Positions 23,513 to 50,929 of a stretch of 64,000 nt of DNA are shown here, piece after piece (within the stretch, counting starts at the first letter, position 1; each line of letters starts with the position of its first letter). The stretch comes from an uncultured Candidatus Cenarchaeum sp. (lineage in GTDB: Archaea > Thermoproteota > Nitrososphaeria > Nitrososphaerales > Nitrosopumilaceae). The notes below the pieces were generated by a model that saw nothing but the letters and a program-made list of their open reading frames with translations, ran no database searches and was not told where the DNA came from. Position numbers and translations under genes: made by a program. Location of the stretch: NCBI GenBank assembly GCA_958295735.1, contig OY282369.1:1-64000 (forward strand). Direction: 5' to 3'.

Positions 23513-25645
23513 GTACACACTTACCTCCCCCCCCCCCTCCCGCCGCGACTTGGCCGCCCGGGCGGGCCCGCGCGCCGCGCAAGCTTAGGCTGGCCTAAGG
23601 GTCGATTTGTATAATTGTGGCGAGTTTGGGCCTGCCGGCATGGCGGAATCCGGGGTGGCGCTGTTGCGCAAGGAACTGGCGGCCGCGTTAGAAAAGATCG
23701 CCGGGCTGGAAGCCGAGGCCGCGGAGCGGGCGGCCGAGATCGCGATGCTGAAGGCCAAGTCCACGGAGCAGGCGCTGCTGCGCAAGGAACTTGCGGCCTC
23801 GCTCGAAAAGATCGCCGGGCTGGAAGCCGAGGCCGCGGAGCGGGCGGCCGAGATCGCGATGCTGAAGGCCAAGTCCACGGAGCAGGCGCTGCTGCGCAAG
23901 GAACTGGCGGCCGCGTTGGAAAAGATCGCCGGGCTGGAAGCCGAGAACGCCGGGCTGAAGGCCAAGGCCGCCGAGCAGGCGGTCAGGCTTGCCGTGTGCG
24001 ACGGCCCGAACGCGCCCTCGTCGTCCCTCACCACGTACGGCCCCCGGCGGAACGCCTGGCGCAAGGAGCGGGGCTACAAGGGGAGCGACGGGGCCGGGAG
24101 CGACGGCAAGCCCGCTCCGGACGGCGGCGCCCCGCGCAAGATGGGCCCGCCCCAAGGGCACAAGGGCGTCTCGCACTGCAACAAGCCCGAGTTCACCATG
24201 AAGTGCGGGATCCTGACGTGCCCCGTGTGCTGCGGCCCCCTGGAGAAGTTCGACAGGTGGCGAAAGCTGGTCAACGACTTCGATCAGTTCTGGCGCGTGG
24301 TCACCGCGATGATCGAGGTGGAGACGGGCTGGTGCGGCAGGTGCGAGAAGTACTACGAGGCCCAGGCGCCGTTTCCGAAGGGCACCTCGTGCGGCCCGAG
24401 GGCGCTCGGCCTCATAATGGCGCTGTTCGAGATGGGCTGCACGGACGCGAGGATCGCCGGCTTTATCGAGTCCACGTTCTACTTCCGCATCTCGGAGGCG
24501 GCCGTGGCGAAGGCCCGGAGGGCCATGGCGGGCGCGTCGAAGAAGCAGCTGGAGGAGATCAAGTGGGCGTTCAGCGAGAGCATGTTCGTGCACATGGACG
24601 AGACCGGGTTCAAGATCGGCGTGCTGGGCAAGACCGGCTACGTCTGGGTGGCCGTCGTGGGCAACGCCGTGTGGGTGCACTTCGCGCCCACCCGGGGGGC
24701 GGCGGTCCTGAGGGAGCACTTCGGCTGGCTGTCCCGCAGGGCGGTGGTGGCCGACGGGCTGCCGGCGTACCGCGCGTGGTTCCAGCATCTGCAGAGATGC
24801 TGCAGGCACCTGCTCGCCAAGGGCGAGGCCGTCGCCGTGGACGGCGACCCGGGGGACGAGGCGAGGCACGACTGGATGCAGGGGTACTACCACAAGATAC
24901 ACGGCATCAAGACGCTGGCGCCGTTCACCGTGACGTACCTGGCCAAGGAGTTCCACGACGCCGTGTCGGCGTACCCCGACGGCAAGCTGAAGACGCACCT
25001 CGCCAACGCCGAGCCGCACGTGCTCACGTTCATGGGATTCCGCGGCATGCCGCCCCACAACAACCCCGCCGAGCTCGCCATACGCGACCTCATAGTGACG
25101 CAGCGCAACGCGCACCACAAGATCTCCACGCCGGAGGGGCGCAAGACGTTCTCCGAGCTGGTCACGATCGGGGGCACCGCCCGCATGAACGGCATGTTCC
25201 CGGGCAGGGCCTTCACCGAGATCGCCCGCAATCGCGACTGGAAAATGTTCGACCCCGGCCCGTGGGCCGGGCCCGACTGGTGCGTCTTCGATGACCCCGC
25301 ATCCGGGCTGGTGCGCCCGCCCGGCTCCGCGGCGGGGCGGGCGCCGGCTCCGGCAGCGGCGTCCGCCTGACCGGCCCCAACGGATCTGCCGGGCGCGCGC
25401 GGGCGGCGTCAGCCCGCGTCAGGCATCGGGACGGAGCGCCGTACCGGGGCGGCCGCGCGCCGAAAATGCCCCGAACCCTGCCGCGATCGCGCGGCGCGCG
25501 CCGATCGGGGCAGCCCGGGCGCGCGGGGGGCGGCGCCCGCCCGCCGAAGGATCCCCGCTCCGGCCGCGATCGCGCGGCGCGCGCCGATCGGGGCAGCCCG
25601 GGCGCGCGGGGGGCGCCGGGAGGGGGGGGGGAGGTAAGTGTGTAC
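23513..25645 (+). mobile_element. IS66-type insertion sequence, copy 1
   Basis: A 2133-bp element with terminal inverted repeats GTACACACTTACCTC-C10-11-TCCCG at both ends, flanked by the 8-bp direct repeat ACCGGCCG (23505-23512 and 25646-25653). An 8-bp duplication is the IS66-family hallmark. The right subterminal region has an ~89-bp direct repeat (GATCGGGGCAGCCCGGGCGC at about 25502 and 25590). Confidence 0.93.
23640..25370 (+). CDS. IS66-type transposase
   Basis: A 576-residue protein. Residues ~5-110 are a coiled coil built from a 38-residue repeat (LLRKELAAALEKIAGLEAEA...STEQA), two and a half copies here. A zinc-ribbon-like segment follows (CGILTCPVCCGPLEK, WCGRCEKYY). The DDE core has FVHMDETGFKIG, KTGYVWV, VVADGLPAYRAWF and the C-terminal block PHNNPAELAIRDLIVTQRN, whose N-N-x-A-E arrangement is typical of IS66. 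An upstream in-frame start at 23607 is rejected: GTATAATTG at about 23601-23609 looks like the TATA box, 30 bp above ATG 23640. No tnpA/tnpB accessory genes are present, so it is a single-gene IS66 derivative. Confidence 0.9.
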   Translation: MAESGVALLRKELAAALEKIAGLEAEAAERAAEIAMLKAKSTEQALLRKELAASLEKIAGLEAEAAERAAEIAMLKAKSTEQALLRKELAAALEKIAGLEAENAGLKAKAAEQAVRLAVCDGPNAPSSSLTTYGPRRNAWRKERGYKGSDGAGSDGKPAPDGGAPRKMGPPQGHKGVSHCNKPEFTMKCGILTCPVCCGPLEKFDRWRKLVNDFDQFWRVVTAMIEVETGWCGRCEKYYEAQAPFPKGTSCGPRALGLIMALFEMGCTDARIAGFIESTFYFRISEAAVAKARRAMAGASKKQLEEIKWAFSESMFVHMDETGFKIGVLGKTGYVWVAVVGNAVWVHFAPTRGAAVLREHFGWLSRRAVVADGLPAYRAWFQHLQRCCRHLLAKGEAVAVDGDPGDEARHDWMQGYYHKIHGIKTLAPFTVTYLAKEFHDAVSAYPDGKLKTHLANAEPHVLTFMGFRGMPPHNNPAELAIRDLIVTQRNAHHKISTPEGRKTFSELVTIGGTARMNGMFPGRAFTEIARNRDWKMFDPGPWAGPDWCVFDDPASGLVRPPGSAAGRAPAPAAASA

Positions 25646-33938: not shown

Positions 33939-34030
33939 GTGTAGACTTACGTCCAAATCAAAACCACGCCTAGCGGCAACAATCCGCTCCGCGATCCCAC
34001 GCCTAGATCACAATGGACGTAAGTCTACAC
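33939..34030. mobile_element. 92-bp MITE, copy d
   Basis: Ends GTGTAGACTTACGTCCA at 33939 and the inverse TGGACGTAAGTCTACAC to 34030, flanked by the 8-bp direct repeat GCGGATGC (33931-33938 and 34031-34038). It is placed just upstream of the trp promoter. Confidence 0.93.
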
Positions 34031-34273
34031 GCGGATGCTTGGCGGGGGAGGGCGGATCCGGGTCCGCCGGGCGGCGCGGGGCAACTTCGCGGGCCGGCGG
34101 GGGCGCCCGAGCGGATCCGGGTCCGGGCGGGGGCGCGGGGCAGATTCGCGGACGCGGGCCGGCTCGCTTGGCCGGTTGGCGCCAAACCTACAGCGCTGGA
34201 CCTCGCAGGACGGGACACGCGCGGCGGCGGGCCTTACAGAACCAATAATAACCAACCATTGGCGACCCGCGCC

Positions 34274-36832
34274 GTGAAAGCGTTCCACACGGTGGCCGTG
34301 CCGCACGACGACATCATGCGGAAGAAGCTCACCATGGACGTCTTTGCGGCCGACCTGTGGGACGCGTTTCGTGGAAGGGGATCGGAAGCGTACACGGATC
34401 CGGCGACCTTCTTCAAGAAGACCCACATGACGGCGAATCTCGAGAAGATCATCCGCGGCGTGCAGACGCGCCTCGACGGCGACGGCGGGGACGGCTTCCA
34501 GCACATCGAGACGCCGTTCGGCGGAGGCAAGACGCACGCGCTGATCGCAATGTACCACAAGGCGAAGGAGTGGGGCGCCAAATCCGTGGTCGTGGTGGGA
34601 ACCTCGATGGGCCACGAGGAGACCATATGGGGCAAGATCGAGGAGCAGCTGGACGGGAGGATCGACGTCCTGTCGGGGCAGCTGGCACCGGGGAGGGAAA
34701 AGCTGGAACGGGTAATTGAAAAGCACGGTCCCGTCCTGATCCTGATAGACGAGCTGGTGCAGCACGCATCGGTCGCGGCGGGAGTAAGGCTGGGCGACAC
34801 CACGATGGCGGCCCAGATCATAGCGTTCGTCCAGCAGCTCAGCGAGGTCGCGTCCACGCTGAGCCGCCTGTGCGTGGTCGCCAGCCTTCCGGCGAGCGTA
34901 TACGAGATGCCAGACAGGAAGACGGCGGAAGACCTGCTGCGGATGATACGCAAGGTGTCCGGCCGCAAGGAGAAGAAGATTACCCCCGTTGACCCCAACG
35001 ACATTCCGGACATCATACGTTCAAGGCTGTTCTCGTCCACCGAGGACGAGATCAGGGAAGGCTCAGCGGAAGCGATATCCAGATTTGTCGACTACTGCGA
35101 AAAAGAGCACATACTGCCCCCCGGCAGGACCGCCGTGCAGTACCGGAAGGAATTCGAAGGCACGTACCCCTTCCTGCCCCAGGTGTTCGAGGTGCTGTAC
35201 CACAACTGGGGCAGCTTTCCGACATTCCAGAGGACCAGGGGCGTGCTCCGGCTACTCTCGTTGGTGGTATACTCGCTCAAGGACAGCGACAGGCAATACA
35301 TCACGCTGTCCGACTTTGACCTCAAGGACGACGAAATCAGGAGGGAGTTGCTGGAGCACATCGGCGACGAGTTTGACAGCGTAATATCGAAAGACATAAC
35401 CAGTTCCGATTCGGGAGCCAGGCGCGCGGACCAGGACGTCGGCCAGGCGCACATGGGGCTTCTCCTCGGCACGAGGGCGGCGGTGGCCATATTCATGTGC
35501 TCGTTTTCCAGCGGCGGCACCAACGGCGCAACCATAAACCAGATCAAGCAGGCGGCGTGCGGCACAGGAGAGCTCTCCAGCATGGTTGGAGACGTGGTGG
35601 GCGGCTTCAGGAGCAAAATGTCGTACGTAAAGAGCGACGACGATCGGTACCTGTTCACCAGCGAGCCCAACATAAACCGCCTCAAGATCGACAGGATGGA
35701 GAGCGTCAAGGAGGAAGAGATGCGCGAAGGCGAGAGGGAGGTTTTGGAGGCCAACGTCGGGTCCCAGCCCATGCGCACCGTTGTGTGGCCCGCCGGGCCG
35801 AGGGACGTGGACGACTCGCCCACGCTGAAGCTCGCCATAATGCAGGACGACGACGCGGAGAAATGCGAGAACATGCTGGAAAGCAAGGGCGAAGCGCCCA
35901 GAGTGCACAGAAACTCAATGTTTTTCCTGTGCCCTGCTGGCGTGGAAAGAGACCAGTTTGCCGACTCGTTAAAGGGCAAGATAGCGCTGGAGAAGATCTT
36001 GGCCGATCCCATAACCCTCAAGCCGGAGCAGAAAAAGGATGTCGAGAACGACTTAGGAAAAGAAAAGGGCGGCCTAGGACACCTGATCAGAAAATACTAC
36101 AGGATCCTCTACATCCCGAACAGCCAAGATCTGGAGAGGTACGACATGGGCATTCCCATAGCCGGCGAGTCGACTGGAATCGCAGAACAAGTTTTCGAGG
36201 CGCTAAAGTCCCAGCAACAGGTGCACGAGAGCATCGGGCCACGGGTCATGAAGACGGAGCATCTAGGGGAACGCGAGCACGCAGAGACAGCAAGCATGTA
36301 CGAACGCATGCTGAGTATGAGGGGGAGCCGGCGGCCCATTGACAGAAGCGTCGTAAAGGAAGCGATCAGGCAGGGGGTCGACAAGAAGGTGTTCGGCATC
36401 GGAACGCTGGTCGACGGATCGCCCGCCTGCACGCATTTCGGCGGCGACGCGCCCGTCGAGTTTTCCGACGGCGAGGTGATCATCAACGCGTCCGTATGCG
36501 AAAGGCAGGCGGCGGCGAGGATCGCCGAACAGGGCCCTGGGCATCCTGATCATGGACAAGACGAAGCGGGCGGCGGCGCCCGGCGGTACAATGGCAGCAA
36601 CGGTGGTGCACCGGATCTCGCCTCACGCGGCGGCAGAAAGGAAATAGATCTCGACTTCGATGTCCCGGAGGGCAAGATGAGCGACGCGTGGGGCATCTTG
36701 AAGCTTGTCAACGAAAGATTCCGTTCCATACACTTCAGGATCAACGCCAAGGACGGATCAATGACGGATGTCGACGTTAGCAAGATATCGGAAGCGCTGA
36801 GGCAGATGGGAACACAGCACAAGCTAAAGTGA
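34274..36832 (+). CDS. DUF499-type AAA ATPase of a methyltransferase/helicase defence module
   Basis: An 852-residue P-loop ATPase. Walker A is PFGGGKTH at 81-88 (ETPFGGGKTHALIAMYHKA) and Walker B is LILIDE at 155-160. VVVVGTSM, LSRLCVVASLP and the long helical middle match DUF499 (COG1483-like) proteins, which occur with DUF1156 adenine methylases and large helicases. The start is GTG 34274, about 26 bp below AATAATAA (34245-34252), giving a leaderless message. It is convergent with the methylase gene, 3' ends overlapping by 9 bp. The role is probably an ATP-driven component of a restriction or exclusion system; this is inferred from context. Confidence 0.8.
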   Translation: MKAFHTVAVPHDDIMRKKLTMDVFAADLWDAFRGRGSEAYTDPATFFKKTHMTANLEKIIRGVQTRLDGDGGDGFQHIETPFGGGKTHALIAMYHKAKEWGAKSVVVVGTSMGHEETIWGKIEEQLDGRIDVLSGQLAPGREKLERVIEKHGPVLILIDELVQHASVAAGVRLGDTTMAAQIIAFVQQLSEVASTLSRLCVVASLPASVYEMPDRKTAEDLLRMIRKVSGRKEKKITPVDPNDIPDIIRSRLFSSTEDEIREGSAEAISRFVDYCEKEHILPPGRTAVQYRKEFEGTYPFLPQVFEVLYHNWGSFPTFQRTRGVLRLLSLVVYSLKDSDRQYITLSDFDLKDDEIRRELLEHIGDEFDSVISKDITSSDSGARRADQDVGQAHMGLLLGTRAAVAIFMCSFSSGGTNGATINQIKQAACGTGELSSMVGDVVGGFRSKMSYVKSDDDRYLFTSEPNINRLKIDRMESVKEEEMREGEREVLEANVGSQPMRTVVWPAGPRDVDDSPTLKLAIMQDDDAEKCENMLESKGEAPRVHRNSMFFLCPAGVERDQFADSLKGKIALEKILADPITLKPEQKKDVENDLGKEKGGLGHLIRKYYRILYIPNSQDLERYDMGIPIAGESTGIAEQVFEALKSQQQVHESIGPRVMKTEHLGEREHAETASMYERMLSMRGSRRPIDRSVVKEAIRQGVDKKVFGIGTLVDGSPACTHFGGDAPVEFSDGEVIINASVCERQAAARIAEQGPGHPDHGQDEAGGGARRYNGSNGGAPDLASRGGRKEIDLDFDVPEGKMSDAWGILKLVNERFRSIHFRINAKDGSMTDVDVSKISEALRQMGTQHKLK

Positions 36833-39584
36833 CGTGCGCGAATGTGCGTGAGTTCGGGGCGGTAGCCTTGTTTGGTTGGGATCTCTCAAGAGAGTGCTAT
36901 CCATGATGGTTTCCCGGCTGGAGAGAAAACCGCTAAGCAACCTTGATTCAGGACTTCCCGGATTCGCTTCCACCAAAGCTTGGGCAACCTTGTAAAAAAC
37001 ATCAGATCCCCCAAACCCGCTCTCCTCAAGAATACGCAACATGTTCTGCTTCTTGTTGCACTTCCACAGCAAGGCTGACCTGTGCAGGACATCTATCATC
37101 TCGTGCGATCCAATGTCTTCTATCTTGCGCTCATTCGGCTCCAGTACTTTGACGAACGCCTTGTCCTTTTTGATGAGCCCCTTGGAGGACTCGCGCTCCA
37201 GATCTAAGCCTACGCTCTGGGCCAGCTTGAGCGCGTCTCCAAACTGTACCCTTGAGTGGCCATAGGCGTAGCGCCACAATACATAAAATCGCGTTATTTG
37301 CGACACTTCTCCGCCAAAGCCGCCCCGCAGTACGTGGTTTATGGCATAGTCGGTCACTATCTTGCGCACGTCGTTTAAGAGTCTGATTGTGGTGACCGGT
37401 TCGTCGCTGTCGTCAGTCACTTTTTCGTATCGGCCAAAGACCTGTATGGATGCCCCCATGGCAGATATAAAAAAATCGGCTCCAGACATTCGCTGTTTCC
37501 AGATCGTTTCCAGCTTGCTCTCAACGCGTGCCGCCATGTCTTTTTTCACATCGCGGTAAAAGCCGTGTTCTTCTTTCTTGCTCTTACGCGCAACCATGTA
37601 GATGGAGCTGGCAAGGGCGGCAGAGTCGTTCGCTATCATTCGGCCTTTCATTTCTGTCCTAATTGGCCATGCGCCAGTTATTAGCAAGCCAGATTCCAGA
37701 ATTGAGTTGATCAACGTCTCCCAGCCGTCGGTCGACTTGTGCGCATATACTATTACCGCGATTCCGTCATTCTTTAATACTCTGTATATTTCTTTAAATG
37801 ACTGTGAAAGGCCATTTTCAAAGTCGTCTTTTGTCTTGATTGTCGGGATCGCGCTCTTGACCTCCGTTTTTTCTTTTCTGAGAACCAAAGTGAAGTTTGC
37901 TACAACTTCATCAGATTTGGGAGTAAGCGGAGTAGAGAACAATTCGGGATACAGGTGTCCTATGCTCCTCTTTAGCCAGACATAGAAAAAATCTGACAGT
38001 GTTGAATAGAATATGTTGTCGTAGTAAGGAGGATCGGTAAACACTGCGTCAAAATAGTTGTCCGGATAAGACAGCCCAAGTGCAGATTCTTGCGCTATCT
38101 TGGCAGCTGGTTTTTCTATGTTCGACGAATGTTCTACTACTTTCAACACCCAGTCTTGCATGCTCTTCCATCCGCTGTTTGCGAAAGGGTTGATCTCCAC
38201 ATAATGCCAGATCATCGCAAATGATTGGCGTCCAAAAATGCTTTGGATCTTTTCGCCCATTACATCATATCGCGCAAGATTGGAAGCCCTGTCTGCAAGT
38301 TTGTCTAGCATGATTCCAAGATATGTGACTACGACACGTGCGTATTCCTCGCCATACCCGGAATTCAGCATCAGGCTGTGGGCTTGTCGGATTTTTTCTG
38401 CAAACGTTATCATTGACAGCATCTGCCGCGGGTTGAAAAGGTGCTTCCACCTCGTCAATCCGTACAGCATTATTTCTGTTGTTTGCCAATATATCCCACC
38501 CTGTTTGTATTCCGCGCCGTCAGGTGTTTGGATCACCTCGTCGGGGATCGGATCAAGATCATAGTCAGCATACAGAATGTCTCGTTTTGCTTTCAAGTAT
38601 TCGTGGGCTTCTTTGCAAACGGCCAGATCGGAACTGTTGCTGGGGCGGTATGTCTTGCCCGGCGTGCCGGTTTTACTCAGTATGACCACTATCTGCTTGT
38701 CCCAGCTTGCCTTTTTCCAGAAAATTTTTTTCATCGTTTTAGGATCTATCACGCTCCCGCACGCAATGCAGACTGCCGTCGCTTTTGATATTGTGCCCTT
38801 GTCGGGATCAAAGCCGCCCGGCATGGGATCGTAGCCGTCTCCTACTATCCGAAACAGAATCGTTCTTCCTTTGGCGTACGGGCATGCTGCCACCTTTTTG
38901 TGCGGTTTTCGGGCCAGCCAGTAGTTCGGCATAAGCGGTATCTCGGCACCGCACTCACGGTTCTGGCACGGGACAGTCCTCGCCGTTATGTACCCCGCCG
39001 GTTTTGCGGTGTCCGCTTGTGGGTAGAATTTCCCGATCTCTTCAAGCGCCTCGTCCAGTACCCAGTCCGACCATTTTTTGACATCTTTAAGCAGGCCGTT
39101 GTCGGCATGCTTTGCGGCCATATTGTTCTCTGTTGATCTGTTGCCGAATTTTTGCGGGAACTCGAGGATGCATTTTTGGATCAGTACCGACACGGGGTTG
39201 ATGTCCCCCGAATATGTCTCGCAACCCAACCGCAACGCTTCCAGTGGGATCCCCCCCCCCCCCCCCGAATGGATCAAGAACCTTGGGCGGCACGCCGCCG
39301 TTGTTATCCAGTATCTCTTTTCGCGCCCTTTCTAAAAGATCGTGGTTCAGGGAGTTTTCCCACTCCGACAACCGCACTACGAAGTCGCTTTGAGATCCAC
39401 TTTTTGTGTCCGCTTGGAGATTCACCAGCGAGGCGTATATGGTAGCGCGGGACGAGGCGAGCGGGCGCCTAGCCCACCATATGTGCAGGGTTGATATGTG
39501 GCCGTGCCGAATGTATTTTTCCCTAGCAGATTGTGAGGAGACTTCTTCGACGGGGAACGCATCCCCTATCAGCCTGCGCTTCAT
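36824..39584 (-). CDS. DUF1156 N6-adenine methyltransferase, frame broken at a G16 tract
   Basis: Two frames make one 919-residue protein if the G tract at 39251-39266 loses one base. The 5' part (ATG 39584, MKRRLIGDAFPVEEVSSQSA... HIWWARRPLASSRATIYASL) is the DUF1156 N-terminus and ends in LDPF-GGGG, the start of SAM motif I. The 3' part resumes with IPLEALRLGCETYSGDINPV. Then come zinc-ribbon cysteines (VPCQNRECGAEIPL, AVCIACGSVID), motif IV FTDPPYYDNIF, and YRVLKNDGIAVIVYAHKS. As written, the first frame passes the tract by 1 nt and reads out of frame. It overlaps the helicase stop by ATGA. The gene is markedly AT-richer than its neighbours. It is either a phase-OFF allele or a sequencing error in the homopolymer. 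Confidence 0.85.
39251..39266 (-). repeat. G16 homopolymer in SAM motif I of the DUF1156 methyltransferase
   Basis: Sixteen C on the plus strand, i.e. G16 in the coding direction, directly after codons for L-D-P-F and before I-P-L-E. Fifteen or eighteen G would keep the frame; sixteen does not. Confidence 0.9.
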
Positions 39585-42500
39585 TGCGCCTTTTCACGCA
39601 TCTCTTCGGCGCTTACGAGGTACTTGACCACCTCCTTGCTTGCCTTTAGGTTTTTTGCGGGATTCTGGAATACGAGCAACTTGGCGCGCTGTTCCTTGCG
39701 CGCGTTCCATACCACGTACAGGTAGTACGCATCCCCCATCTGCGATGCGTGGTACCATTCGTTGGTGCTCAGCGCCACCTCGCCCTCCCCCGCCCGCGCC
39801 TTGACCTCGATGTACCTAATCCCGCCGTCCGGATCGGTCGACCTCACGTCGAACCCGAGGTTGTCCTTTGAGACGTCTTCCGGCGTCCTGCCGGCGTCGG
39901 CCTCGTGCTTGAGCGCCGCCATCATCCCCGCCGCCTCCACGTCCGGATCCCGCCGCATGCCCTGGGTTCCTGCCGCAACAAGCGGCTTTACGCGGATCAT
40001 CCCCACGAACGACGGCGTGCTCATGGTGAGGCTCTTCTCCTTCCTTATCGATTCTTCAAGGTCGTCCTTGGCCTCCTCGTGCTTGCGCTTCCTGTCGGTC
40101 TTGTACCTTATCGCGATGGCCATGTTCTCGCCGGCGTCCCTGCGGTTGTGCAGGTCGATCAGGTCGTTGTCGCATTCTATGATCGACTGGCGGAGGGACT
40201 CGACGCCGTACTTTTGCTTTATCGCCGACTGGCGGTCGCGCTCCTTCTGGAGTACCTCGCGGTATCCCGCCAGCGACTCCATGACGCCGGCCTCCGCGCC
40301 CGCCTTGATCGCGCCCACGTCCCCGCCCGATCCGCCCCTTTCGTCGGATTCCAGGAGATCCCACACGAGGGTGGGCTGGGCGGGCCTCACTCGGCCGGAT
40401 GCCAGATCTGCAAAGTGCGCGAAGATCTTCCGGCCCGCCGCCTGTCCCGTACCGTCCTTGATCTCGCCCTCGTGGAAGACTACGTGGCCGTCGGATCCCT
40501 CCGGATCCAGAAAGACGGCCCCCTTCTGCAGTTCCGGGCCGAACCTGCGGCCGATCCACTCCAGCACGGCCTCGAAGATCGGGTGGCCGAAGGTGACGAA
40601 CTCTGCGTCCTGGTGCTTGAAGCCGATCTCCTTGTCGAACGTCGCCTTCGGGTACGCCTTCAGGGCGGAGCCGTGGTTCCTCTTGAACTCCTCCTCGTCG
40701 CATATGCGCCTGATCTCGTACGGCACGGAGTCGATCGACGCGAAGCCGTCGGCCCTGTCGCGCATCCTGCCGCCCGCGCGCGAGAGGGCCCTGCTGAAGA
40801 GCTGCTTCGTGTACTGCGGGATCAGCTTGTTCTCCATCGCCTTGTTCCTCATCTCCAGGATCGCCGTGTGGTCTATGTATTTGGTCGCGAGGCTGTCGCC
40901 GAGTTGGGCCTTGATGGCCTCCAGGCGTTCCGGGTCCTGCACGCCCACGTCTATCTCCCTCAGGATCTCGTCGTGGTCCCGCGTGCTGGCGGCCGCCTCG
41001 ATCATGAGCTGGGACAGGCTGCGGCCGGGGAGGATCTCGCTTATGACGTCGAACACCTTGTCGCTGTTGAGATCCCTCTTCATCTCGTCCAGTTTTTTCA
41101 GCAGCGCGGCCATGACCTTGCCCTCCCTGGTCTCCGATGCCACCATGTTGAAGACGGTCACCTCCCGCTGCTGGCCGTACCTGTGGATGCGCCCCATCCG
41201 CTGCTCCAGCCTGTTGGTGTTCCACGGCAGATCGTAGTTGATCATCAAGTGGCAGAACTGCAGGTTTATTCCCTCGCCCGCGGCCTCTGTGGCCACCATT
41301 ACCCGCGTCTCGTTCCTGAACACCGCCTCCGCCCTTATGCGTTCCTCCAGCGGCATCCCGCCGTGTATGGTGTTGACGGTGTAGCCCCACCGCTCCACCT
41401 TCTTCTCCAGGTACGTGAGGGTGTCCTTCGACTCCGTGAATATCAGGATCTTGTCGTCGCGGTGGTCCGCGTCCATCTCGCCCAGCATGCGCCTCAGCTG
41501 GGAGAGCTTGGTCTCGTCCCCGCTCTCGATTATCCGCTCGGTGCGCCCGATGAGGCGGACCAGGGTGGCGATCTCGGCCCTCAGCTCCTCCAGGCTGCCC
41601 GCCGTGCTCAGGGTCTCCCACATCTCCTCCTCGCGCCACCTGTCGCCCTCGCTCATGTCCTCCACCACGTCGAGCGCCGTGAAGGTGTGATCCTCCCGCT
41701 CGCCGCGCGCCCTGCCAGCCCCCTCGATCATCTCCTCCAGCCTCTTCCTCCTCCGCGACAGGGACATCAGCAGCGCGTACATGCTCGATGCGAACCGCCT
41801 CTGCAGTATTATCAGGGCGAAGCCGATGTTCCGCTTCTTGAAGGCCGCCAGCGCCCTGTTGTACTGCTCCCTGACGTACTCGGACATCTCGTTGTACAGC
41901 TCCTTTTCGTCGTCCGAGAGCCGCACGTCCGGCGTCATGATCCGGCGCGGCACGAACAGGGGCTTCCCCTCGAAGTCCGTCATGTCCTCCTTCATCCTGC
42001 GCAGGAACAGCGGGTTGTCCATGTTCCGGATGGACTCCTTTATCATGTCGGGGGTCCTGAAGAATCCCGGGTTCAGCAGGTCCAGGAACAGCCTGAAGTT
42101 CTCGGGATCCCCCTTGTGGGGGGTGGCGGTGAGGAACAGCAGGTGCTCGCTGTTCCTGGAGAGGATCTCCCCCAGCCTGTACCTTTCCGTCTTGTCCGTC
42201 TTGTCGCCGTACTTTGAGGCGCTCATCTTGTGCGCCTCGTCCACCACTATCAGGTCGAACTCCGAGTCCGCCAGCGGCCGGACCACGTCGTCGCGCTTGG
42301 CAAAGTCGATCGACGTTATCATCTGGTTCTCCTTCTTCCAGACGTTCTCGGCGAAGTGGGAGTTCACGTACTCGCGCGAGACCACCACGAACGCCTCCTC
42401 GAACCGCTCCTTGAGCTCCCTGCGCCACTGGTCCTTGAGGTGCCCCGGGACGACTATGAGCGTCCTGCGTATGATCCGCCTCATCTTCAGCTCCTTGATT

Positions 42501-42916
42501 ATGAGCCCTGCCATGATCGTCTTCCCGGCCCCCGGATCGTGGGCCAGCAGGAACCGGATCTTGGGCATCCTCAGGACGTAGCCGTAGACCGCCTCGATCT
42601 GGTGCGGCAGCGGATCGACCTTGGAGGCGTTCATGGCGAGGAGCGGGTCGTACAGCGACGCCAGGCGGTACCTCTTCGCCTCCAGCGCCAGGAAGACCTC
42701 CCGCGCGTCGCTTGAAAAGTCGGTCGGCACGCTCTGGATGCTGACGCGCGCCAGATCCGCGTGCGGGATCATCTGGTCGACGTGCGCGTTGGACGGGACG
42801 GTGGACGCCACGAGGCGGACGTACGACTCCCTCGCGTCGACGAACTTGACGGCGATGGGCTCCGGCCACATGGGGCCCACCACGACTATTCCCGGCTTCA
42901 GATCGTCCGCCTTCAA
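39581..42916 (-). CDS. SNF2/DEAD-type helicase with C-terminal DUF3883 domain
   Basis: A 1111-residue superfamily 2 ATPase. LPHQIEAVYG precedes Walker A DPGAGKT at 127-133; DEAH is at 226-229 (LIVVDEAHKMSA); motif III is LFLTATPHKGD. The second RecA domain has KILIFTESKDTLTYL, MVATEAAGEGINLQF and RLEQRMGRIHRYGQ. Near residues 1010-1090, DNLGFDVRS... IRYIEVKARAGEGEVALS looks like DUF3883, related to restriction-endonuclease folds. TTG 42916 (MKADDLKPGIVVVGP) is chosen as it lies about 28 bp below the AT box at 42939-42950. It is first of a two-gene operon with the methyltransferase. It resembles DrmD-type helicases of class 1 DISARM, but I find no DUF1998 or PLD gene in this window. Confidence 0.85.
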   Translation of the reverse strand: MKADDLKPGIVVVGPMWPEPIAVKFVDARESYVRLVASTVPSNAHVDQMIPHADLARVSIQSVPTDFSSDAREVFLALEAKRYRLASLYDPLLAMNASKVDPLPHQIEAVYGYVLRMPKIRFLLAHDPGAGKTIMAGLIIKELKMRRIIRRTLIVVPGHLKDQWRRELKERFEEAFVVVSREYVNSHFAENVWKKENQMITSIDFAKRDDVVRPLADSEFDLIVVDEAHKMSASKYGDKTDKTERYRLGEILSRNSEHLLFLTATPHKGDPENFRLFLDLLNPGFFRTPDMIKESIRNMDNPLFLRRMKEDMTDFEGKPLFVPRRIMTPDVRLSDDEKELYNEMSEYVREQYNRALAAFKKRNIGFALIILQRRFASSMYALLMSLSRRRKRLEEMIEGAGRARGEREDHTFTALDVVEDMSEGDRWREEEMWETLSTAGSLEELRAEIATLVRLIGRTERIIESGDETKLSQLRRMLGEMDADHRDDKILIFTESKDTLTYLEKKVERWGYTVNTIHGGMPLEERIRAEAVFRNETRVMVATEAAGEGINLQFCHLMINYDLPWNTNRLEQRMGRIHRYGQQREVTVFNMVASETREGKVMAALLKKLDEMKRDLNSDKVFDVISEILPGRSLSQLMIEAAASTRDHDEILREIDVGVQDPERLEAIKAQLGDSLATKYIDHTAILEMRNKAMENKLIPQYTKQLFSRALSRAGGRMRDRADGFASIDSVPYEIRRICDEEEFKRNHGSALKAYPKATFDKEIGFKHQDAEFVTFGHPIFEAVLEWIGRRFGPELQKGAVFLDPEGSDGHVVFHEGEIKDGTGQAAGRKIFAHFADLASGRVRPAQPTLVWDLLESDERGGSGGDVGAIKAGAEAGVMESLAGYREVLQKERDRQSAIKQKYGVESLRQSIIECDNDLIDLHNRRDAGENMAIAIRYKTDRKRKHEEAKDDLEESIRKEKSLTMSTPSFVGMIRVKPLVAAGTQGMRRDPDVEAAGMMAALKHEADAGRTPEDVSKDNLGFDVRSTDPDGGIRYIEVKARAGEGEVALSTNEWYHASQMGDAYYLYVVWNARKEQRAKLLVFQNPAKNLKASKEVVKYLVSAEEMREKAQ

Positions 42917-42950
42917 GCTTTTGGCGGGGCCCCTCCCGATTATATCATTA

Positions 42951-43468
42951 TTGCGAGGCAGGCGCGTCCACGAACCGCCCCCGGGCCGCGCCCCTCGCCC
43001 ACCTTCGGCCGGCCTCGCCCGCGCTGCGGCGGATGGCGGGGAGCGATCGCGCGCCTCCGGCCGTCCCGCCGGTCGCCTCCCGGCAGCTGCCGGCCCCGTC
43101 CCGCGCGCCACGCGCGGGGCCGGCGGCCACCCGCGGCAGCCGGCAAGACTCCCGTCCCCCGCGGCCCGGATGCCCGCCGTGCGGACAGCGGCCCCGCGGA
43201 CAGCGGCCCCGCGGACAGCGGCCCCGCGGCTTTGCCTCTTCCCGGGTTTCCCGCAGAACGCTCCAGACCGCGCGCCTTTGGCGGGAGGCGCCGGCAGGCT
43301 GCGGCGGCGGGGCAGGCAATCGGCTACACTCCAAGGGGCATTGCGGGGCAGCGCGGTGAGGCCGGCAGGCTGCGGCGCGGGCCCCGGTCCGCCCGCCGGA
43401 TGCGCCCAAACTGCAGGGCAACACCCCACGCGGCGCGGCGGGGGAACCGGCAGGTCCGCGCCGGCCGC
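42951..43468. other. Spacer homologous to the upstream region of GHKL-nuclease copy B2
   Basis: From about 43240 to 43468 the sequence matches 47930-48158 (GGGCCCCGGTCCGCCCGCCG, GAACCGGCAGGTCCGCGCCG), so this is the original upstream flank of the GHKL-nuclease gene at 45651, now separated from it by IS66 copy 2. No gene is supportable. Confidence 0.65.
43191..43235. repeat. 15-bp tandem repeat, three units
   Basis: GCGGACAGCGGCCCC occurs three times in direct succession (43191, 43206, 43221). It is not shared with the homologous flank near 47900. Confidence 0.75.
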
Positions 43469-45601
43469 GTACACACTTACCTCCCCCCCCCCCTCCCGCC
43501 GCGACTTGGCCGCCCGGGCGGGCCCGCGCGCCGCGCAAGCTTAGGCTGGCCTAAGGGTCGATTTGTATAATTGTGGCGAGTTTGGGCCTGCCGGCATGGC
43601 GGAATCCGGGGTGGCGCTGCTGCGCAAGGAACTGGCGGCCGCGTTAGAAAAGATCGCCGGGCTGGAAGCCGAGGCCGCGGAGCGGGCGGCCGAGATCGCG
43701 ATGCTGAAGGCCAAGTCCACGGAGCAGGCGCTGCTGCGCAAGGAACTTGCGGCCTCGCTCGAAAAGATCGCCGGGCTGGAAGCCGAGGCCGCGGAGCGGG
43801 CGGCCGAGATCGCGATGCTGAAGGCCAAGTCCACGGAGCAGGCGCTGCTGCGCAAGGAACTGGCGGCCGCGTTGGAAAAGATCGCCGGGCTGGAAGCCGA
43901 GAACGCCGGGCTGAAGGCCAAGGCCGCCGAGCAGGCGGTCAGGCTTGCCGTGTGCGACGGCCCGAACGCGCCCTCGTCGTCCCTCACCACGTACGGCCCC
44001 CGGCGGAACGCCTGGCGCAAGGAGCGGGGCTACAAGGGGAGCGACGGGGCCGGGAGCGACGGCAAGCCCGCTCCGGACGGCGGCGCCCCGCGCAAGATGG
44101 GCCCGCCCCAAGGGCACAAGGGCGTCTCGCACTGCAACAAGCCCGAGTTCACCATGAAGTGCGGGATCCTGACGTGCCCCGTGTGCTGCGGCCCCCTGGA
44201 GAAGTTCGACAGGTGGCGAAAGCTGGTCAACGACTTCGATCAGTTCTGGCGCGTGGTCACCGCGATGATCGAGGTGGAGACGGGCTGGTGCGGCAGGTGC
44301 GAGAAGTACTACGAGGCCCAGGCGCCGTTTCCGAAGGGCACCTCGTGCGGCCCGAGGGCGCTCGGCCTCATAATGGCGCTGTTCGAGATGGGCTGCACGG
44401 ACGCGAGGATCGCCGGCTTTATCGAGTCCACGTTCTACTTCCGCATCTCGGAGGCGGCCGTGGCGAAGGCCCGGAGGGCCATGGCGGGCGCGTCGAAGAA
44501 GCAGCTGGAGGAGATCAAGTGGGCGTTCAGCGAGAGCATGTTCGTGCACATGGACGAGACCGGGTTCAAGATCGGCGTGCTGGGCAAGACCGGCTACGTC
44601 TGGGTGGCCGTCGTGGGCAACGCCGTGTGGGTGCACTTCGCGCCCACCCGGGGGGCGGCGGTCCTGAGGGAGCACTTCGGCTGGCTGTCCCGCAGGGCGG
44701 TGGTGGCCGACGGGCTGCCGGCGTACCGCGCGTGGTTCCAGCATCTGCAGAGATGCTGCAGGCACCTGCTCGCCAAGGGCGAGGCCGTCGCCGTGGACGG
44801 CGACCCGGGGGACGAGGCGAGGCACGACTGGATGCAGGGGTACTACCACAAGATACACGGCATCAAGACGCTGGCGCCGTTCACCGTGACGTACCTGGCC
44901 AAGGAGTTCCACGACGCCGTGTCGGCGTACCCCGACGGCAAGCTGAAGACGCACCTCGCCAACGCCGAGCCGCACGTGCTCACGTTCATGGGATTCCGCG
45001 GCATGCCGCCCCACAACAACCCCGCCGAGCTCGCCATACGCGACCTCATAGTGACGCAGCGCAACGCGCACCACAAGATCTCCACGCCGGAGGGGCGCAA
45101 GACGTTCTCCGAGCTGGTCACGATCGGGGGCACCGCCCGCATGAACGGCATGTTCCCGGGCAGGGCCTTCACCGAGATCGCCCGCAATCGCGACTGGAAA
45201 ATGTTCGACCCCGGCCCGTGGGCCGGGCCCGACTGGTGCGTCTTCGATGACCCCGCATCCGGGCTGGTGCGCCCGCCCGGCTCCGCGGCGGGGCGGGCGC
45301 CGGCTCCGGCAGCGGCGTCCGCCTGACCGGCCCCAACGGATCTGCCGGGCGCGCGCGGGCGGCGTCAGCCCGCGTCAGGCATCGGGACGGAGCGCCGTAC
45401 CGGGGCGGCCGCGCGCCGAAAATGCCCCGAACCCTGCCGCGATCGCGCGGCGCCCGCCGATCGGGGCAGCCCGGGCGCGCGGGGGGCGGCGCCCGCCCGC
45501 CGAAGGATCCCCGCTCCGGCCGCGATCGCGCGGCGCGCGCCGATCGGGGCAGCCCGGGCGCGCGGGGGGCGCCGGGAGGGGGGGGGGAGGTAAGTGTGTA
45601 C
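43469..45601 (+). mobile_element. IS66-type insertion sequence, copy 2
   Basis: 2133 bp, essentially identical to copy 1, with the same termini (GTACACACTTACC). The 8-bp direct repeat CCGGCCGC flanks it (43461-43468 and 45602-45609). It sits 49 bp upstream of the ATG of a GHKL-nuclease gene, 19 bp above its TATA box. The uninterrupted target is seen upstream of the paralogue at 48195. Confidence 0.93.
43596..45326 (+). CDS. IS66-type transposase, copy 2
   Basis: A 576-residue protein, the same as the copy at 23640-25370 apart from silent or single differences. Start ATG 43596 below GTATAATTG. It retains the full coiled coil and all DDE-region motifs (FVHMDETGFK, VVADGLPAYR, PHNNPAELAIRD). 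The near-identity of copies 1 and 2 indicates recent transposition. Confidence 0.9.
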   Translation: MAESGVALLRKELAAALEKIAGLEAEAAERAAEIAMLKAKSTEQALLRKELAASLEKIAGLEAEAAERAAEIAMLKAKSTEQALLRKELAAALEKIAGLEAENAGLKAKAAEQAVRLAVCDGPNAPSSSLTTYGPRRNAWRKERGYKGSDGAGSDGKPAPDGGAPRKMGPPQGHKGVSHCNKPEFTMKCGILTCPVCCGPLEKFDRWRKLVNDFDQFWRVVTAMIEVETGWCGRCEKYYEAQAPFPKGTSCGPRALGLIMALFEMGCTDARIAGFIESTFYFRISEAAVAKARRAMAGASKKQLEEIKWAFSESMFVHMDETGFKIGVLGKTGYVWVAVVGNAVWVHFAPTRGAAVLREHFGWLSRRAVVADGLPAYRAWFQHLQRCCRHLLAKGEAVAVDGDPGDEARHDWMQGYYHKIHGIKTLAPFTVTYLAKEFHDAVSAYPDGKLKTHLANAEPHVLTFMGFRGMPPHNNPAELAIRDLIVTQRNAHHKISTPEGRKTFSELVTIGGTARMNGMFPGRAFTEIARNRDWKMFDPGPWAGPDWCVFDDPASGLVRPPGSAAGRAPAPAAASA

Positions 45602-45620
45602 CCGGCCGCGGGAGTCACTG

Positions 45621-45627
45621 TTAATAA
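45621..45627 (+). promoter_or_regulatory. TATA box of GHKL-nuclease copy B1
   Basis: TTAATAA, 30 bp above ATG 45651; the paralogue at 48195 has TTAATAT at 48166-48172 with similar flanks. IS66 copy 2 ends 19 bp upstream. Confidence 0.65.
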
Positions 45628-45650
45628 GGCCCGCCCGCCCGTACGCGGCC

Positions 45651-47657
45651 ATGGCGGCGTACGCGATGACCATCTCCAGGAACACCATAGACAAGCTCGG
45701 CGTCAAGCTGTACGACAAGGTGTCGGACGTCATAGCGGAGCTCATCTCCAACGCGTACGACGCCGATGCCGAGAACGTGACGGTGAGCGTCCCAATAGGA
45801 AAGGTGCTGGCCTACAGCAAGGACGGCGAGATCCGGGATCGCGGGCACAAGATAACCATAGAGGACGACGGGCACGGCATGGATCCCGACGAAGCCAACA
45901 GGTTTTACCTGAAAGTCGGGACGGATCGAAGGACGGACGGGCGCCGCGGACGCGGGGGGGCCAGATCCCCGCAGAAGAAGCGGGCCGTCATGGGCAGGAA
46001 GGGGATAGGAAAGCTTTCGTCGTTCGGGATATGCAAAAAGATCGAGGTCTGGTCGGCCGGGGGCCCCAGGTGGAAAGACGGGTACAGGATATCGCATTTT
46101 ACGATGTGCTACGACGACATACTGCAGGACACCGATGCCGATTACGAGCCAATGCGGGGCAGCCAGGACCGCTGCTGGTCGGAGACGGCGGGAACGAGGG
46201 TAACAATGTCCGACTTCCTCACCAGGAGGATACCAGACATGGACGTATTCGCGCGCCAGATCACCAGGAAATTCAGCCTGGGGCTGCCCGACTTCCAAAT
46301 CGCGGTGCGCGACACGGCATCCGGGCGGAGGATCGGCATCGCGGACATGAAGATAGACATAGCGGACGGCACGAAGATCACGCTGGACGAGGATCTCGAC
46401 GCCGGCGGCCAAAAGCTTCACGTCGGGGGATGGGTTGCGTATTCCAAGCATCCGTACAAAAACGAGGAGGTGGCGGGAATCCGGATCTACGCGCGGGGAA
46501 AGCTGGCCGCCGTGACCCGGGACTTCGGACACGGGGCGGGGTTTACGGGCGAGCACAGCATACGATCATACCTCGTGGGCGAGATACACGCTGACTGGCT
46601 CGACACGGAAGAGGATCTGGTAGCCAGCGACAGGCAGGACATACTGTGGTCGTCCGACAAGGGCGAGGAATTCAAGGCGTGGGGGCAGAAGGTCGTGGGA
46701 CGTCTGGGGCGAAACGCCGAAAAAACCGTGCGCGACACGACATACCGCATGTTCGCGGACAAGTCGAATTTCGAGCAGGCTGCCAGGGAGCGGTTCAAGG
46801 ACAAGGAAGTCTACGAGGCCGCAATAAACTTGGGAAAAGCGGTCGGAAGAATCGCCGACAGGGGCATGCTGGACAATCCCGAGTATGTAGACGGCCTGCT
46901 GGAACTGATCTTGGCCGTTGCGCCAAGCAAGATGCTGGTGGAAAAACTCGCTTTTATAGCAAACGAGGCAAACCCGCACGCCCTCAAGATCATGTCGTCG
47001 CTTTTTGGCGATGCCAAAATCGCCGAAATGGCGTGGATGGGCCAAGTTGCGGACGTCAGGGTGCGAACTCTGAATAGGCTCACGAGCGCGATAAGGGATG
47101 ATCCAGATCCCGCCGAGAACGAGATGCACAGGATACTGGAAGAGGCCCCGTGGCTGATCAACCCGCGGTGGACCATACTGCAGTCGAACCAAACCTTGGA
47201 AAATTTCAGGGAGGCGTTCCAGGCATGGTACAGGAAAAAACACGGCGTCAAGATCGTAACAACCGCGATAAATAGCGCGAACAGGAGGCCCGACTTCGTT
47301 CTGATGTCAGCATCCAACGTGATCGAGGTGGTCGAGATCAAGAAACCCAAGCATGTTTTGGGAGACGAAGAAATGGAAAGGCTCAACGCGTACGTGGATG
47401 CGATAGACGAGTTCATGTCAGTCCACCAAGTGATTCCTAATGTTGCCAAGTGTCATGTAACGCTTGTTTGCGACGGCGAGAACCTCAAGGGCACCAAGAA
47501 AGGCGCATATACCAACTTGGTTAATCAAAGACAGTTGACTCAAATTACGTGGGAGGAGCTTTTGGTAGGAGCCAAAAATTCCCACGAGGACTTTCTCCGC
47601 TTCAACAGCAGGCGAGGAAACCGCGCAGATCCGACGCGGGGCAGCGACCGGCCATAG
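45651..47657 (+). CDS. GHKL ATPase-PD-(D/E)XK nuclease fusion, copy B1 (intact)
   Basis: A 668-residue protein with the same plan as the pair at 1216-6233 but clearly divergent. N-box ELISNAYDAD (30-39), G1 box DDGHGM (71-76) and GRKGIGK (114-120) define a GHKL ATPase. The middle includes RQDILWSSDKG. The C-terminal nuclease core reads RPDFVLMSASNVIEVVEIKK, with D548, E562 and K564: the same D-x13-E-x-K spacing as in copy A2, preceded by APWLINPRW, which parallels LWLLDPSW there. After it come NVAKCHVTLVCDG and ITWEELLVGAKNSHEDFLRF. It starts at ATG 45651. Defence function is inferred from fold combination and neighbours. Confidence 0.85.
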   Translation: MAAYAMTISRNTIDKLGVKLYDKVSDVIAELISNAYDADAENVTVSVPIGKVLAYSKDGEIRDRGHKITIEDDGHGMDPDEANRFYLKVGTDRRTDGRRGRGGARSPQKKRAVMGRKGIGKLSSFGICKKIEVWSAGGPRWKDGYRISHFTMCYDDILQDTDADYEPMRGSQDRCWSETAGTRVTMSDFLTRRIPDMDVFARQITRKFSLGLPDFQIAVRDTASGRRIGIADMKIDIADGTKITLDEDLDAGGQKLHVGGWVAYSKHPYKNEEVAGIRIYARGKLAAVTRDFGHGAGFTGEHSIRSYLVGEIHADWLDTEEDLVASDRQDILWSSDKGEEFKAWGQKVVGRLGRNAEKTVRDTTYRMFADKSNFEQAARERFKDKEVYEAAINLGKAVGRIADRGMLDNPEYVDGLLELILAVAPSKMLVEKLAFIANEANPHALKIMSSLFGDAKIAEMAWMGQVADVRVRTLNRLTSAIRDDPDPAENEMHRILEEAPWLINPRWTILQSNQTLENFREAFQAWYRKKHGVKIVTTAINSANRRPDFVLMSASNVIEVVEIKKPKHVLGDEEMERLNAYVDAIDEFMSVHQVIPNVAKCHVTLVCDGENLKGTKKGAYTNLVNQRQLTQITWEELLVGAKNSHEDFLRFNSRRGNRADPTRGSDRP

Positions 47658-48165
47658 ACGGCGGCGTGGCCCGGCGCCTCGCGCTCCCCGGAAATTGGCC
47701 GGCAACCAAGGCCTGCGGCTTCCTGCCCCGCGCTTCCACGCCCTTTCCCGCGCGCGAAGGCGCGGAGGTCATGCGGCGGCCCGGGCCCCGCAGCCCCGCC
47801 CACGCACCCCGCAGAGCAGGCGGCGCTTCTGGCGCACGCTTCCAGCGCGGTTCCGCGGGCCGGCATTAGTTCGCTCACCCGCCAGCTTCCGGCGCGGACC
47901 GCGGCCCCGCGGATTTGCTCCTTGCCAGGTTTTCTCGCGGATTGCGCCAGACCGCGCACCATCCGGGAGGCGTCGGCAGATCCGCGGCGGCGGGGCGTTC
48001 AATCGGCCGCGCTCGCGGGCATTTCGGGGCGGCGCGGCGAGGCCGACAGGCCGCGGCACGGGCCCCGGTCCGCCCGCCGGATGCGCCCAAACGGCCGGCC
48101 GGCCGGCCCCGCACGCGGCGCGGTGGGGGGAACCGGCAGGTCCGCGCCGGCCGCGGGCGTCACGG
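47658..48165. other. Spacer between GHKL-nuclease copies B1 and B2
   Basis: About 500 bp of GC-rich DNA. The second half (from about 47930) is duplicated at 43240-43468, showing that the unit copied in this tandem duplication included at least 220 bp of upstream DNA. No gene is supportable. Confidence 0.6.
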
Positions 48166-50929
48166 TTAATATGCCCGGCGGCGCGCACGCGGCCATGGCG
48201 GCGTACGCGATGACCGTCTCCAGGAACACCGTGGACAAGCTCGGCGTCAACCTGTACGACGGGGTGTCGGACGTCGTGGCGGAACTCGTCTCCAACGCGT
48301 ACGATGCCGATGCCGAGAACGTGACGGTGCGCGCCCCGATGGGGGAGGCGCTGGCCTACAACAAGGACGGCGAGATCCGGGATCGCGGGCACGAGATAAC
48401 CGTGGAGGACGACGGGCACGGCATGGATCCCGGCGAGGCCGACGGGTTCTACCTGGAGGTCGGGACGGATCGGAGGACGGACGGGCGCCGCGGGCGCGGG
48501 GGAGCCAGATCCCCGAAGAAGGGGAGGGCCGTCATGGGCAGGAAGGGGATAGGAAAGCTCGCGCCGTTCGGGATATGCAGAAAGATCGAGGTCCGGTCGG
48601 CCGGGGGCCCCAAGGGGGAAAACGGGTACAGGGTTTCGCATTTTACCATGCGTTACGGCGACATGCCGAAAGGCGCCGATGCTGATTACGAGCCAGTGCC
48701 GGGCAGCGAAGACCGCCGCTGGTCAAGGACGCCCGGAACGAGGATAACGATGTCGGACTTTCTCGCCAGGAAGGTCCCCGACGGCGACGCGTTCGCGCGC
48801 CAAATCGGCAGGAAATTCAGCCTCGGAATGCCCGACTTCCGGATCTCCGCGCACGACGCGGCGTCCGGGCGGAAGTTCGGCATCGCGGGCACGGAGGTAG
48901 ACGTCGCCGACGGCACGAAAATCGCCCTGGACGAGCGGATCGACGCGGGGGGCCAAAAGCTCCGCGTCGCGGGGTGGGTCGCGTATTCCGAGCATCCGTA
49001 CGAGAACGAGGAGGTGGCCGGAGTCCGCATCTACGCGCGTGGAAGGCTGGCGGCCGCGACCCGGGACTTCGGGCGCGGGGCCGGGTTCGCGGGCGAGCAC
49101 GGCATCCGGTCACGCCTCGTGGGCGAGATGCACGCGGACTGGCTCGACGCCGAGGAGGATCTGATAGCCAGCGGCAGGCGGGACGTGCTGTGGTCGTCGG
49201 ACAGGGGCGAGGCGTTCAGGGAGTGGGGGCGGGAGGTCGTGGGGCGGCTCGGGAGAAGCGCCGAAAAGGCCGTGCGCGACGCCGCATACCGCGCGTTCGC
49301 GGACAAGTCGGACTTCGAGCGGGCGGCCGGGGAGCGGTTCAGGGACGAGAAAGTCGCGGAGGCGGCGGTCAGCGCGGGGAAGGCGGTCGGGAGGATCGCC
49401 GACAGGGACGCGCTGGACAATCCCGAGCACGCGGCCGGCCTGCAGGAGCTGATCCTGGCGGCCGCGCCGAGCAGGATGCTGGTGGAGAAACTCGCGCTCG
49501 TGGCGAGCGAGGCTGGCCCGCGCGCCGTCGGGAACATGTCGCGGCTTTTCGCCGACGCCAGAATCGCCGAAATTGCGCAGATGGGCCAGGTTGCGGACGC
49601 GAGGCTGGGCGCTTTGGGGAGGCTCGCGGACGCGGCGGGGGAGAATCACGGTTCCGCCGAGATCGAGGTGTGGAGGATGCTGGAAGAGGCCCCGTGGATG
49701 ATCAACCCGCGGTGGACCGTGCTGGAGTCAAGCCGAACCTTGGAGAACTTCAGGGATGTGTTTCAATCATGGTACAGAAAAAAACACGGCGTCGAGATCG
49801 TGACGACCGCCGCAAACGGCGCAGGCAAAAGGCCCGACTTTGTCCTGATGTCGGCATCCAACACGATCGAGGTGGTTGAAATCAAAAAACCCAAGCACGT
49901 TTTGGGAAACGAAGATGTAGAAACGCTCATCGGGTACGTAGATGCAATAGACGAGTTCATGCCGCACCACAGGGAGGCGGATAACATTGCCAAGTGCCAC
50001 GTAACGCTCATTTGCGACGGCAGGAACTTCGCGGGTGCCAAGAAACGCGCATACAACAACCTGGTTAGTGAAAAGGTACACACTTACCTCCCCCCCCCCT
50101 CCCGCCGCGACTTGGCCGCCCGGGCGGGCCCGCGCGCCGCGCAAGCTTAGGCTGGCCTAAGGGTCGATTTGTATAATTGTGGCGGGTTTGGGCCTGCCGG
50201 CATGGCGGAATCCGGGGCGGCGCTGCTGCGCAAGGAACTGGCGGCCGCGTTGGAAAAGATCGCCGGGCTGGAAGCCGAGGCCGCGGAGCGGGCGGCCGAG
50301 ATCGCGATGCTGAAGGCCAAGTCCACGGAGCAGGCGCTGCTGCGCAAGGAACTGGCGGCCGCGTTGGAAAAGATCGCCGGGCTGGAAGCCGAGAACTCCG
50401 GGCTGAAGGCCAAGGCCGCCGAGCAGGCGGTCAGGCTTGCCGTGTGCGACGGCCCGAACGCGCCCTCGTCGTCCCTCACCACGTACGGCCCCCGGCGGAA
50501 CGCCTGGCGCAAGGAGCGGGGCTACAAGGGGAGCGACGGGGCCGGATCCGACGGCAAGCCCGCTCCGGACGGCGGCGCCCCGCGCAAGATGGGCCCGCCC
50601 CAAGGGCACAAGGGCGTCTCGCACTGCAACAAGCCCGAGTTCACCATGAAGTGCGGGATCCTGACGTGCCCCGTGTGCTGCGGCCCCCTGGAGAAGTTCG
50701 ACAGGTGGCGAAAGCTGGTCAACGACTTCGATCAGTTCTGGCGCGTGGTCACCGCGATGATCGAGGTGGAGACGGGCTGGTGCGGCAGGTGCGAGAAGTA
50801 CTACGAGGCCCAGGCGCCGTTTCCGAAGGGCACCTCGTGCGGCCCGAGGGCGCTCGGCCTCATAATGGCGCTGTTCGAGATGGGCTGCACGGACGCGAGG
50901 ATCGCCGGCTTTATCGAGTCCACGTTCTA

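Follow-up and report, generated by a model that had tools for sequence, protein, structure and literature searches.

Simple-repeat slippage inside the reading frame of DNA methyltransferases, type III mod genes among them, is the basis of the phase-variable methyltransferases (phasevarions) described in Neisseria, Haemophilus and Helicobacter (PMC13076061, PMC11868660), and surface proteins and restriction-modification (RM) genes are the two classes which dominate bacterial phase variation (PMC11868660). Poly-G contingency loci are known in Campylobacter, where poly-G tracts are longer, more numerous and more variable in some species (PMC539331). Hma is a candidate (putative) defence system formed by a helicase, HmaA, a methylase, HmaB, and an ATPase, HmaC (PMC8565338). 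In the archaeon Cenarchaeum symbiosum A a survey counted 25 RM loci and 22 type IIM methyltransferases (PMC10609329). The text of the survey does not mention homopolymer tracts or phase variation, and the term phasevarion occurs only in its reference list. No archaeal case of homopolymer phase variation was found in the open-access literature searched, and a 2025 review leaves the archaeal distribution of the phenomenon to future work (PMC11868660). The locus described here resides in a relative of the sponge archaeon Cenarchaeum, in a stretch of 64,000 nucleotides (the window; positions 1 to 64,000 of contig OY282369.1, assembly GCA_958295735.1), and features a run of 16 Gs which breaks the hmaB gene of a complete Hma locus.

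The hmaB gene and the length of the motif I loop

The occurrence of exactly 16 C residues on the plus strand, thus of 16 Gs on the coding strand of hmaB, is confirmed (Table 1). The upstream frame encodes 106 residues, and at n=16 runs on to only 165 aa. The downstream frame is open for 808 codons, and n=15 joins the two parts (106+5+808) into a protein of 919 residues, as the earlier note had stated. The tract is far above chance. G-runs of >=9 gave 31 overlapping matches in the window against 4.6 (sd 3.35) in shuffled sequences, none of 100 shuffles reaching 31, and about 0.01 run of exactly 16 G is expected from base composition in 592 kb. PADLOC profiles assign both halves of the interrupted gene to HmaB, and the neighbouring genes to HmaA and HmaC. 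The paper which named Hma calls HmaB an m5C methyltransferase (PMC8565338), whereas in the PADLOC library HmaB is a DNA-adenine methylase, and the DPPY motif would fit an amino-methyltransferase (N6-adenine or N4-cytosine). Two tandem GHKL-ATPase paralogues, listed by PADLOC as REase_II, are next to the Hma locus, and may be further defence genes. No Rfam match was found in the 34-46 kb interval.

Table 1. Coordinates of the features of the window and of G-runs elsewhere. L numbers denote single stretches of sequence; G000 is the genome hosting the window, G001 a genome of the same genus.
Position	Record	Strand	Feature	Evidence
39251-39266	window	-	G16 tract in motif I of hmaB; ON length 15 by family consensus, assembled length OFF	run count, alignment of homologues
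39267-39584	window	-	hmaB 5' part, DUF1156 domain, ends ...KVLDPF	Pfam DUF1156 6.6e-23, PADLOC HmaB 7.2e-23
36824-39250	window	-	hmaB 3' part in the other frame, IPLEALRLGCE... with DPPY motif, open to the stop at 36824	PADLOC HmaB 4.6e-95
39087-39584	window	-	ORF as read at n=16, 165-aa truncated product	ORF reading
39581-43474	window	-	hmaA, SNF2-type helicase; profile match covers residues 190-1261, so the true start is probably near 42.9 kb	PADLOC HmaA 7.7e-202
34013-36832	window	+	hmaC, DUF499 ATPase, convergent with hmaB	PADLOC HmaC 5.8e-96
43469-45601	window		IS66-like element copy upstream of hmaA; end tracts G11 (43483-43493, leading strand) and G10 (45578-45587, lagging strand)	
23513-25645	window		second copy of the same element; end tracts G11 (leading) and G10 (lagging)	
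50076-50104	window		lone end of the IS66-like element	
17070-17083	window	-	G14 tract, leading strand, in a repeat region	
17289-17300	window	-	G12 tract, leading strand, in the same repeat region	
45594-47657, 47922-50150	window		tandem GHKL-ATPase paralogues	PADLOC REase_II
2659897	G000		G17 in a type III Mod	flagged in-gene
2467661	G000		G13 in a type IIG enzyme	flagged in-gene
631723	G000		G11 in an Eco57I-type methylase	flagged in-gene
1179996	G000		C12 (coding strand) in a D12 methylase with a further in-frame stop	flagged in-gene
3092812	G000		C13, in frame, N6_N4 methylase	in or at the start of the gene
1997688	G000		G13, in frame with an upstream ATG, second type III Mod	in or at the start of the gene
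2253947	G000		G14, five codons after an ATG, out of frame, DndB	in or at the start of the gene
600734, 2176393, 2316532, 2376700, 2480531, 2509251, 2522416, 2769523, 2799029, 2813978, 2828655, 3063113, 3146851 and others	G000		giant NHL-repeat surface-type proteins	
1189-1977	L058		SspD, G-run upstream	
1031-2020	L065		Cas7-like protein, G-run upstream	
2-2044	L061		ResIII helicase, G-run upstream	
15165-17129	L050		GHKL ATPase, G-run upstream	
2986 (about 1.061 Mb of G001)	L190		G12, in frame inside a Methyltransf_11-like gene	
1465-2004	L066		apparent relative in G000 of the L190 gene, with a G13 about 68 nt upstream	

Homologues of HmaB were taken from 300 genomes of the class and, by scanning with an alignment, from GTDB contigs, a scan with one protein having found nothing. 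In all the 57 sequences in which motif I could be read exactly five residues (15 nt), typically AGGGS or AGGGA, separate DP(F) from the IP(L/F)E-like motif, and the longest G-run is 5. The homologues are tract-free but in frame. Only n=15 corresponds to the length of the family. The earlier note had regarded 18 as a second length able to restore the protein, but n=18 would insert a sixth residue into a loop which never varies in this sample, and may not restore activity. In this genome the G-run fills the whole loop, though free growth from a short run would have left the flanking Ala and Ser/Ala codons in place. This suggests that the length was held near 15 while the run grew.

Distribution and instability of long G-runs

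The tract, which the earlier note had viewed alone, is one of a class. The genome (3.17 Mb, ~70% GC, one contig) contains 129 G-runs of >=12, the highest number found in a sample of 300 genomes of the order, 261 of which have none. Runs lie on the minus strand from about 2.90 Mb through the record start to 1.29 Mb, and on the plus strand from 1.36 to 2.88 Mb, and 124 of 129 obey this rule (p 8e-31). The only cdc6/orc1 gene found lies at 1.328 Mb, at one switch point, and the other switch point is half a genome away. Taking cdc6 to mark the origin, the G strand is the leading strand, and long G-runs locate origin and terminus. In 592 kb sampled the overall skew is nil (-0.009), and runs up to 10 show no excess of G over C on that strand, but G>=11 outnumber C>=11 by 87 to 6. 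A chance effect of high GC can thus be rejected. The stretches were chosen around runs of >=12, and absolute counts at >=12 are biased upward, but strand was not a criterion. Gene orientation does not account for the bias either, since 237 of 426 predicted genes (56%), against 96% of the tracts, are on the leading strand. Sequencing or assembly errors are not expected to follow the replication strand. Conservation of tracts across the genus was not found. G001, which is taken to be C. symbiosum A (2,045,086 bp; 2.05 Mb in PMC10609329), has 10 tracts of G>=12, and with its cdc6 at 1.816 Mb 7 of the 10 are on the leading strand, which is not significant. One of them is in frame inside a methyltransferase-like gene which does not read as a DNA methyltransferase. 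Another genome of the same family, G176, has 81 runs of G>=12, but several are near contig ends and counts in the reversed-pattern control are unequal, and these may be either a sequencing artefact or the mark of another G-run-rich lineage.

Instability of the tracts is directly visible among insertion sequences. An IS66-like element, 47 ends of which were identified genome-wide, carries a G-run at each end, always in opposite orientations, and each insertion places one run on the leading and one on the lagging strand. In 18 simple copies the length without the two runs is 2112 nt every time, and ten copies compared in full differ by 0-18 substitutions. In contrast, the runs vary from 8 to 13. 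Counting every matched end, leading-strand runs reach >=11 in 12 of 25, lagging-strand runs in 1 of 22 (Fisher p 0.001), variances being 2.17 and 0.54, respectively. Within 22 pairs the leading end is longer in 14, the lagging end in 3 (Wilcoxon p 0.009). Both element orientations occur, so the difference is not a property of one end. The paired ends thus represent a natural experiment on which replication strand destabilises G-runs in archaea.

Genes hosting or flanked by tracts

Since a codon-usage gene finder confused strands at ~70% GC, coding on both sides of a tract was assessed by an amino acid composition score. The score flags about 70% of positions inside predicted genes, 96-97% below 66% GC, 81% at 66-70% and 42% above 70%, and as the calibration genes were found with the same score the expectation is approximate. 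With this caveat, tracts are depleted in genes. The five flagged in-gene tracts are all in DNA methyltransferases, HmaB among them (Table 1), a group which makes up, by a rough estimate (33 genes of 1.5 kb), 2.5% of the coding sequence. Three more tracts are located in, or at the starts of, an N6_N4 methylase, a second type III Mod and DndB, though for the last two the start codon was chosen by us. Leaving out the broken D12 gene, phase is OFF in 5 and ON in 2 genes, about the 2:1 ratio expected at random. Ten stretches with methyltransferases lacking a tract have no G- or C-run over 8. A tract near a PglX-like methyltransferase lies in non-coding-looking sequence far past the matched domain, and was not counted.

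Intergenic tracts favour the 5' sense side of genes (within 100 nt, 27 of 45 neighbours). The largest set precedes a paralogous family of giant NHL-repeat proteins, with open frames of several thousand residues and signal-peptide-like starts. The G-run is usually 19-36 nt before the start, hinting at a possible promoter or leader phase variation. G>=11 runs were found within 120 nt in 16 of 22 leading-strand leaders, and in none of the two lagging-strand ones. Yet, these leaders are homologous, and therefore not independent. Tracts are also found within about 10-150 nt upstream of defence-type genes, which match SspD, a Cas7-like protein, a ResIII helicase and a GHKL ATPase. Similarly, two tracts upstream of a methyltransferase in stretch L087 read as leader, not internal.

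Interpretation and comparison with known systems

Data are best accounted for, with reasonable though not full confidence, by the hypothesis that the G16 tract is a slippage-prone contingency site in hmaB, which supports the candidate-switch reading of the earlier note. Most likely, slipped-strand mispairing at leading-strand G-runs above about 10 nt changes their length by single bases, though a selected polar DNA element might also be at the origin of the strand bias. According to this view, at n=15 the 919-aa methyltransferase, with a motif I loop of five glycines, is plausibly made and active. At n=16, as in the assembly, translation leaves the frame in motif I, and a product of at most 165 aa lacking the DPPY catalytic motif is made. 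A population would therefore include cells with and without HmaB methylation. In most genes such runs are plausibly removed by selection, but persist in DNA methyltransferases, at DndB and in leaders of defence and giant surface-protein genes. The origin of the tract is a general mutational process, and its retention in hmaB is the part that may be selected. Length changes have been observed for the class, not for hmaB, and, in the absence of reads or of a second strain, switching, its selection and its consequences on methylation are inferred. No closely related genome with the same gene was found, nor any match in viral contigs. A broader scenario, about as likely as not, is that a sponge-symbiont archaeal lineage runs a genome-wide poly-G contingency system. 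G-runs expanded by strand-specific slippage would be kept at DNA methyltransferases (type II, IIG, III and Hma), at DndB and in leaders of giant surface proteins, and the population would be a mosaic of methylomes and surfaces. If so, an archaeon related to an animal symbiont has evolved the same bet-hedging solution known in bacterial commensals and pathogens, at the same gene classes.

Neutral decay is the main alternative, although an unlikely one. In this scenario hmaB is a young pseudogene, recently broken by a mutational bias which expands leading-strand G-runs. Most tracts are indeed intergenic, or reside in IS ends and tandem repeats, the D12 methylase has a further in-frame stop, and hmaB is a lower-GC (0.50), probably recently acquired accessory gene, which could simply be dying. 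The prevalence of OFF genes is predicted by decay as well as by random phase. Yet, D12 apart, tract-bearing defence genes show no other disabling change in the stretches read, hmaB is otherwise intact over 919 residues, in-gene tracts fall in methyltransferases and not at random over genes, and a run matching the conserved 15-nt loop (+1) is not what free growth in a dead gene would produce.

It seems improbable that the assembly is off by one, and that the tract is a fixed 15 and the gene simply ON. Runs of this length are hard to count with any sequencing method, and the technology used is not known. However, tracts obey the replication strand, and the absence of indels outside the G-runs in 18 IS copies indicates that indel errors, at short runs at least, are rare. 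A true 15 would still be a run of unstable length, and would change the present state, not the nature, of the site. Even less likely is a programmed recoding, in which slippage of RNA polymerase or ribosomes, which a run of this length could promote, would yield a fraction of in-frame product from every cell, making the tract a dosage device. The downstream frame is fully open, but no homologue keeps a slippery run at this site, and tracts elsewhere are located in leaders and IS ends, where recoding has no meaning.

The features reported resemble those of the phasevarions of Neisseria, Haemophilus and Helicobacter in the simple repeats inside methyltransferase reading frames, type III mod genes among them, and in the two main target classes. 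They differ because the host is an archaeon, Hma, IIG and DndB genes are among the targets, tracts are almost confined to the leading strand genome-wide, and neither switching nor a regulon has been demonstrated. As in Campylobacter, many G-runs of variable length occur in one genome, which in this case is that of a ~70% GC archaeon, with a marked leading-strand bias, many tracts in leaders and IS ends and few in coding sequences. Relative to the Hma system, HmaA, HmaB and HmaC genes are all present within 10 kb, but hmaC is convergent to hmaAB, and hmaB is interrupted by a homopolymer not seen in 57 homologues. The genome taken to be C. symbiosum A, which belongs to the same genus, has 10 tracts of G>=12 against 129.
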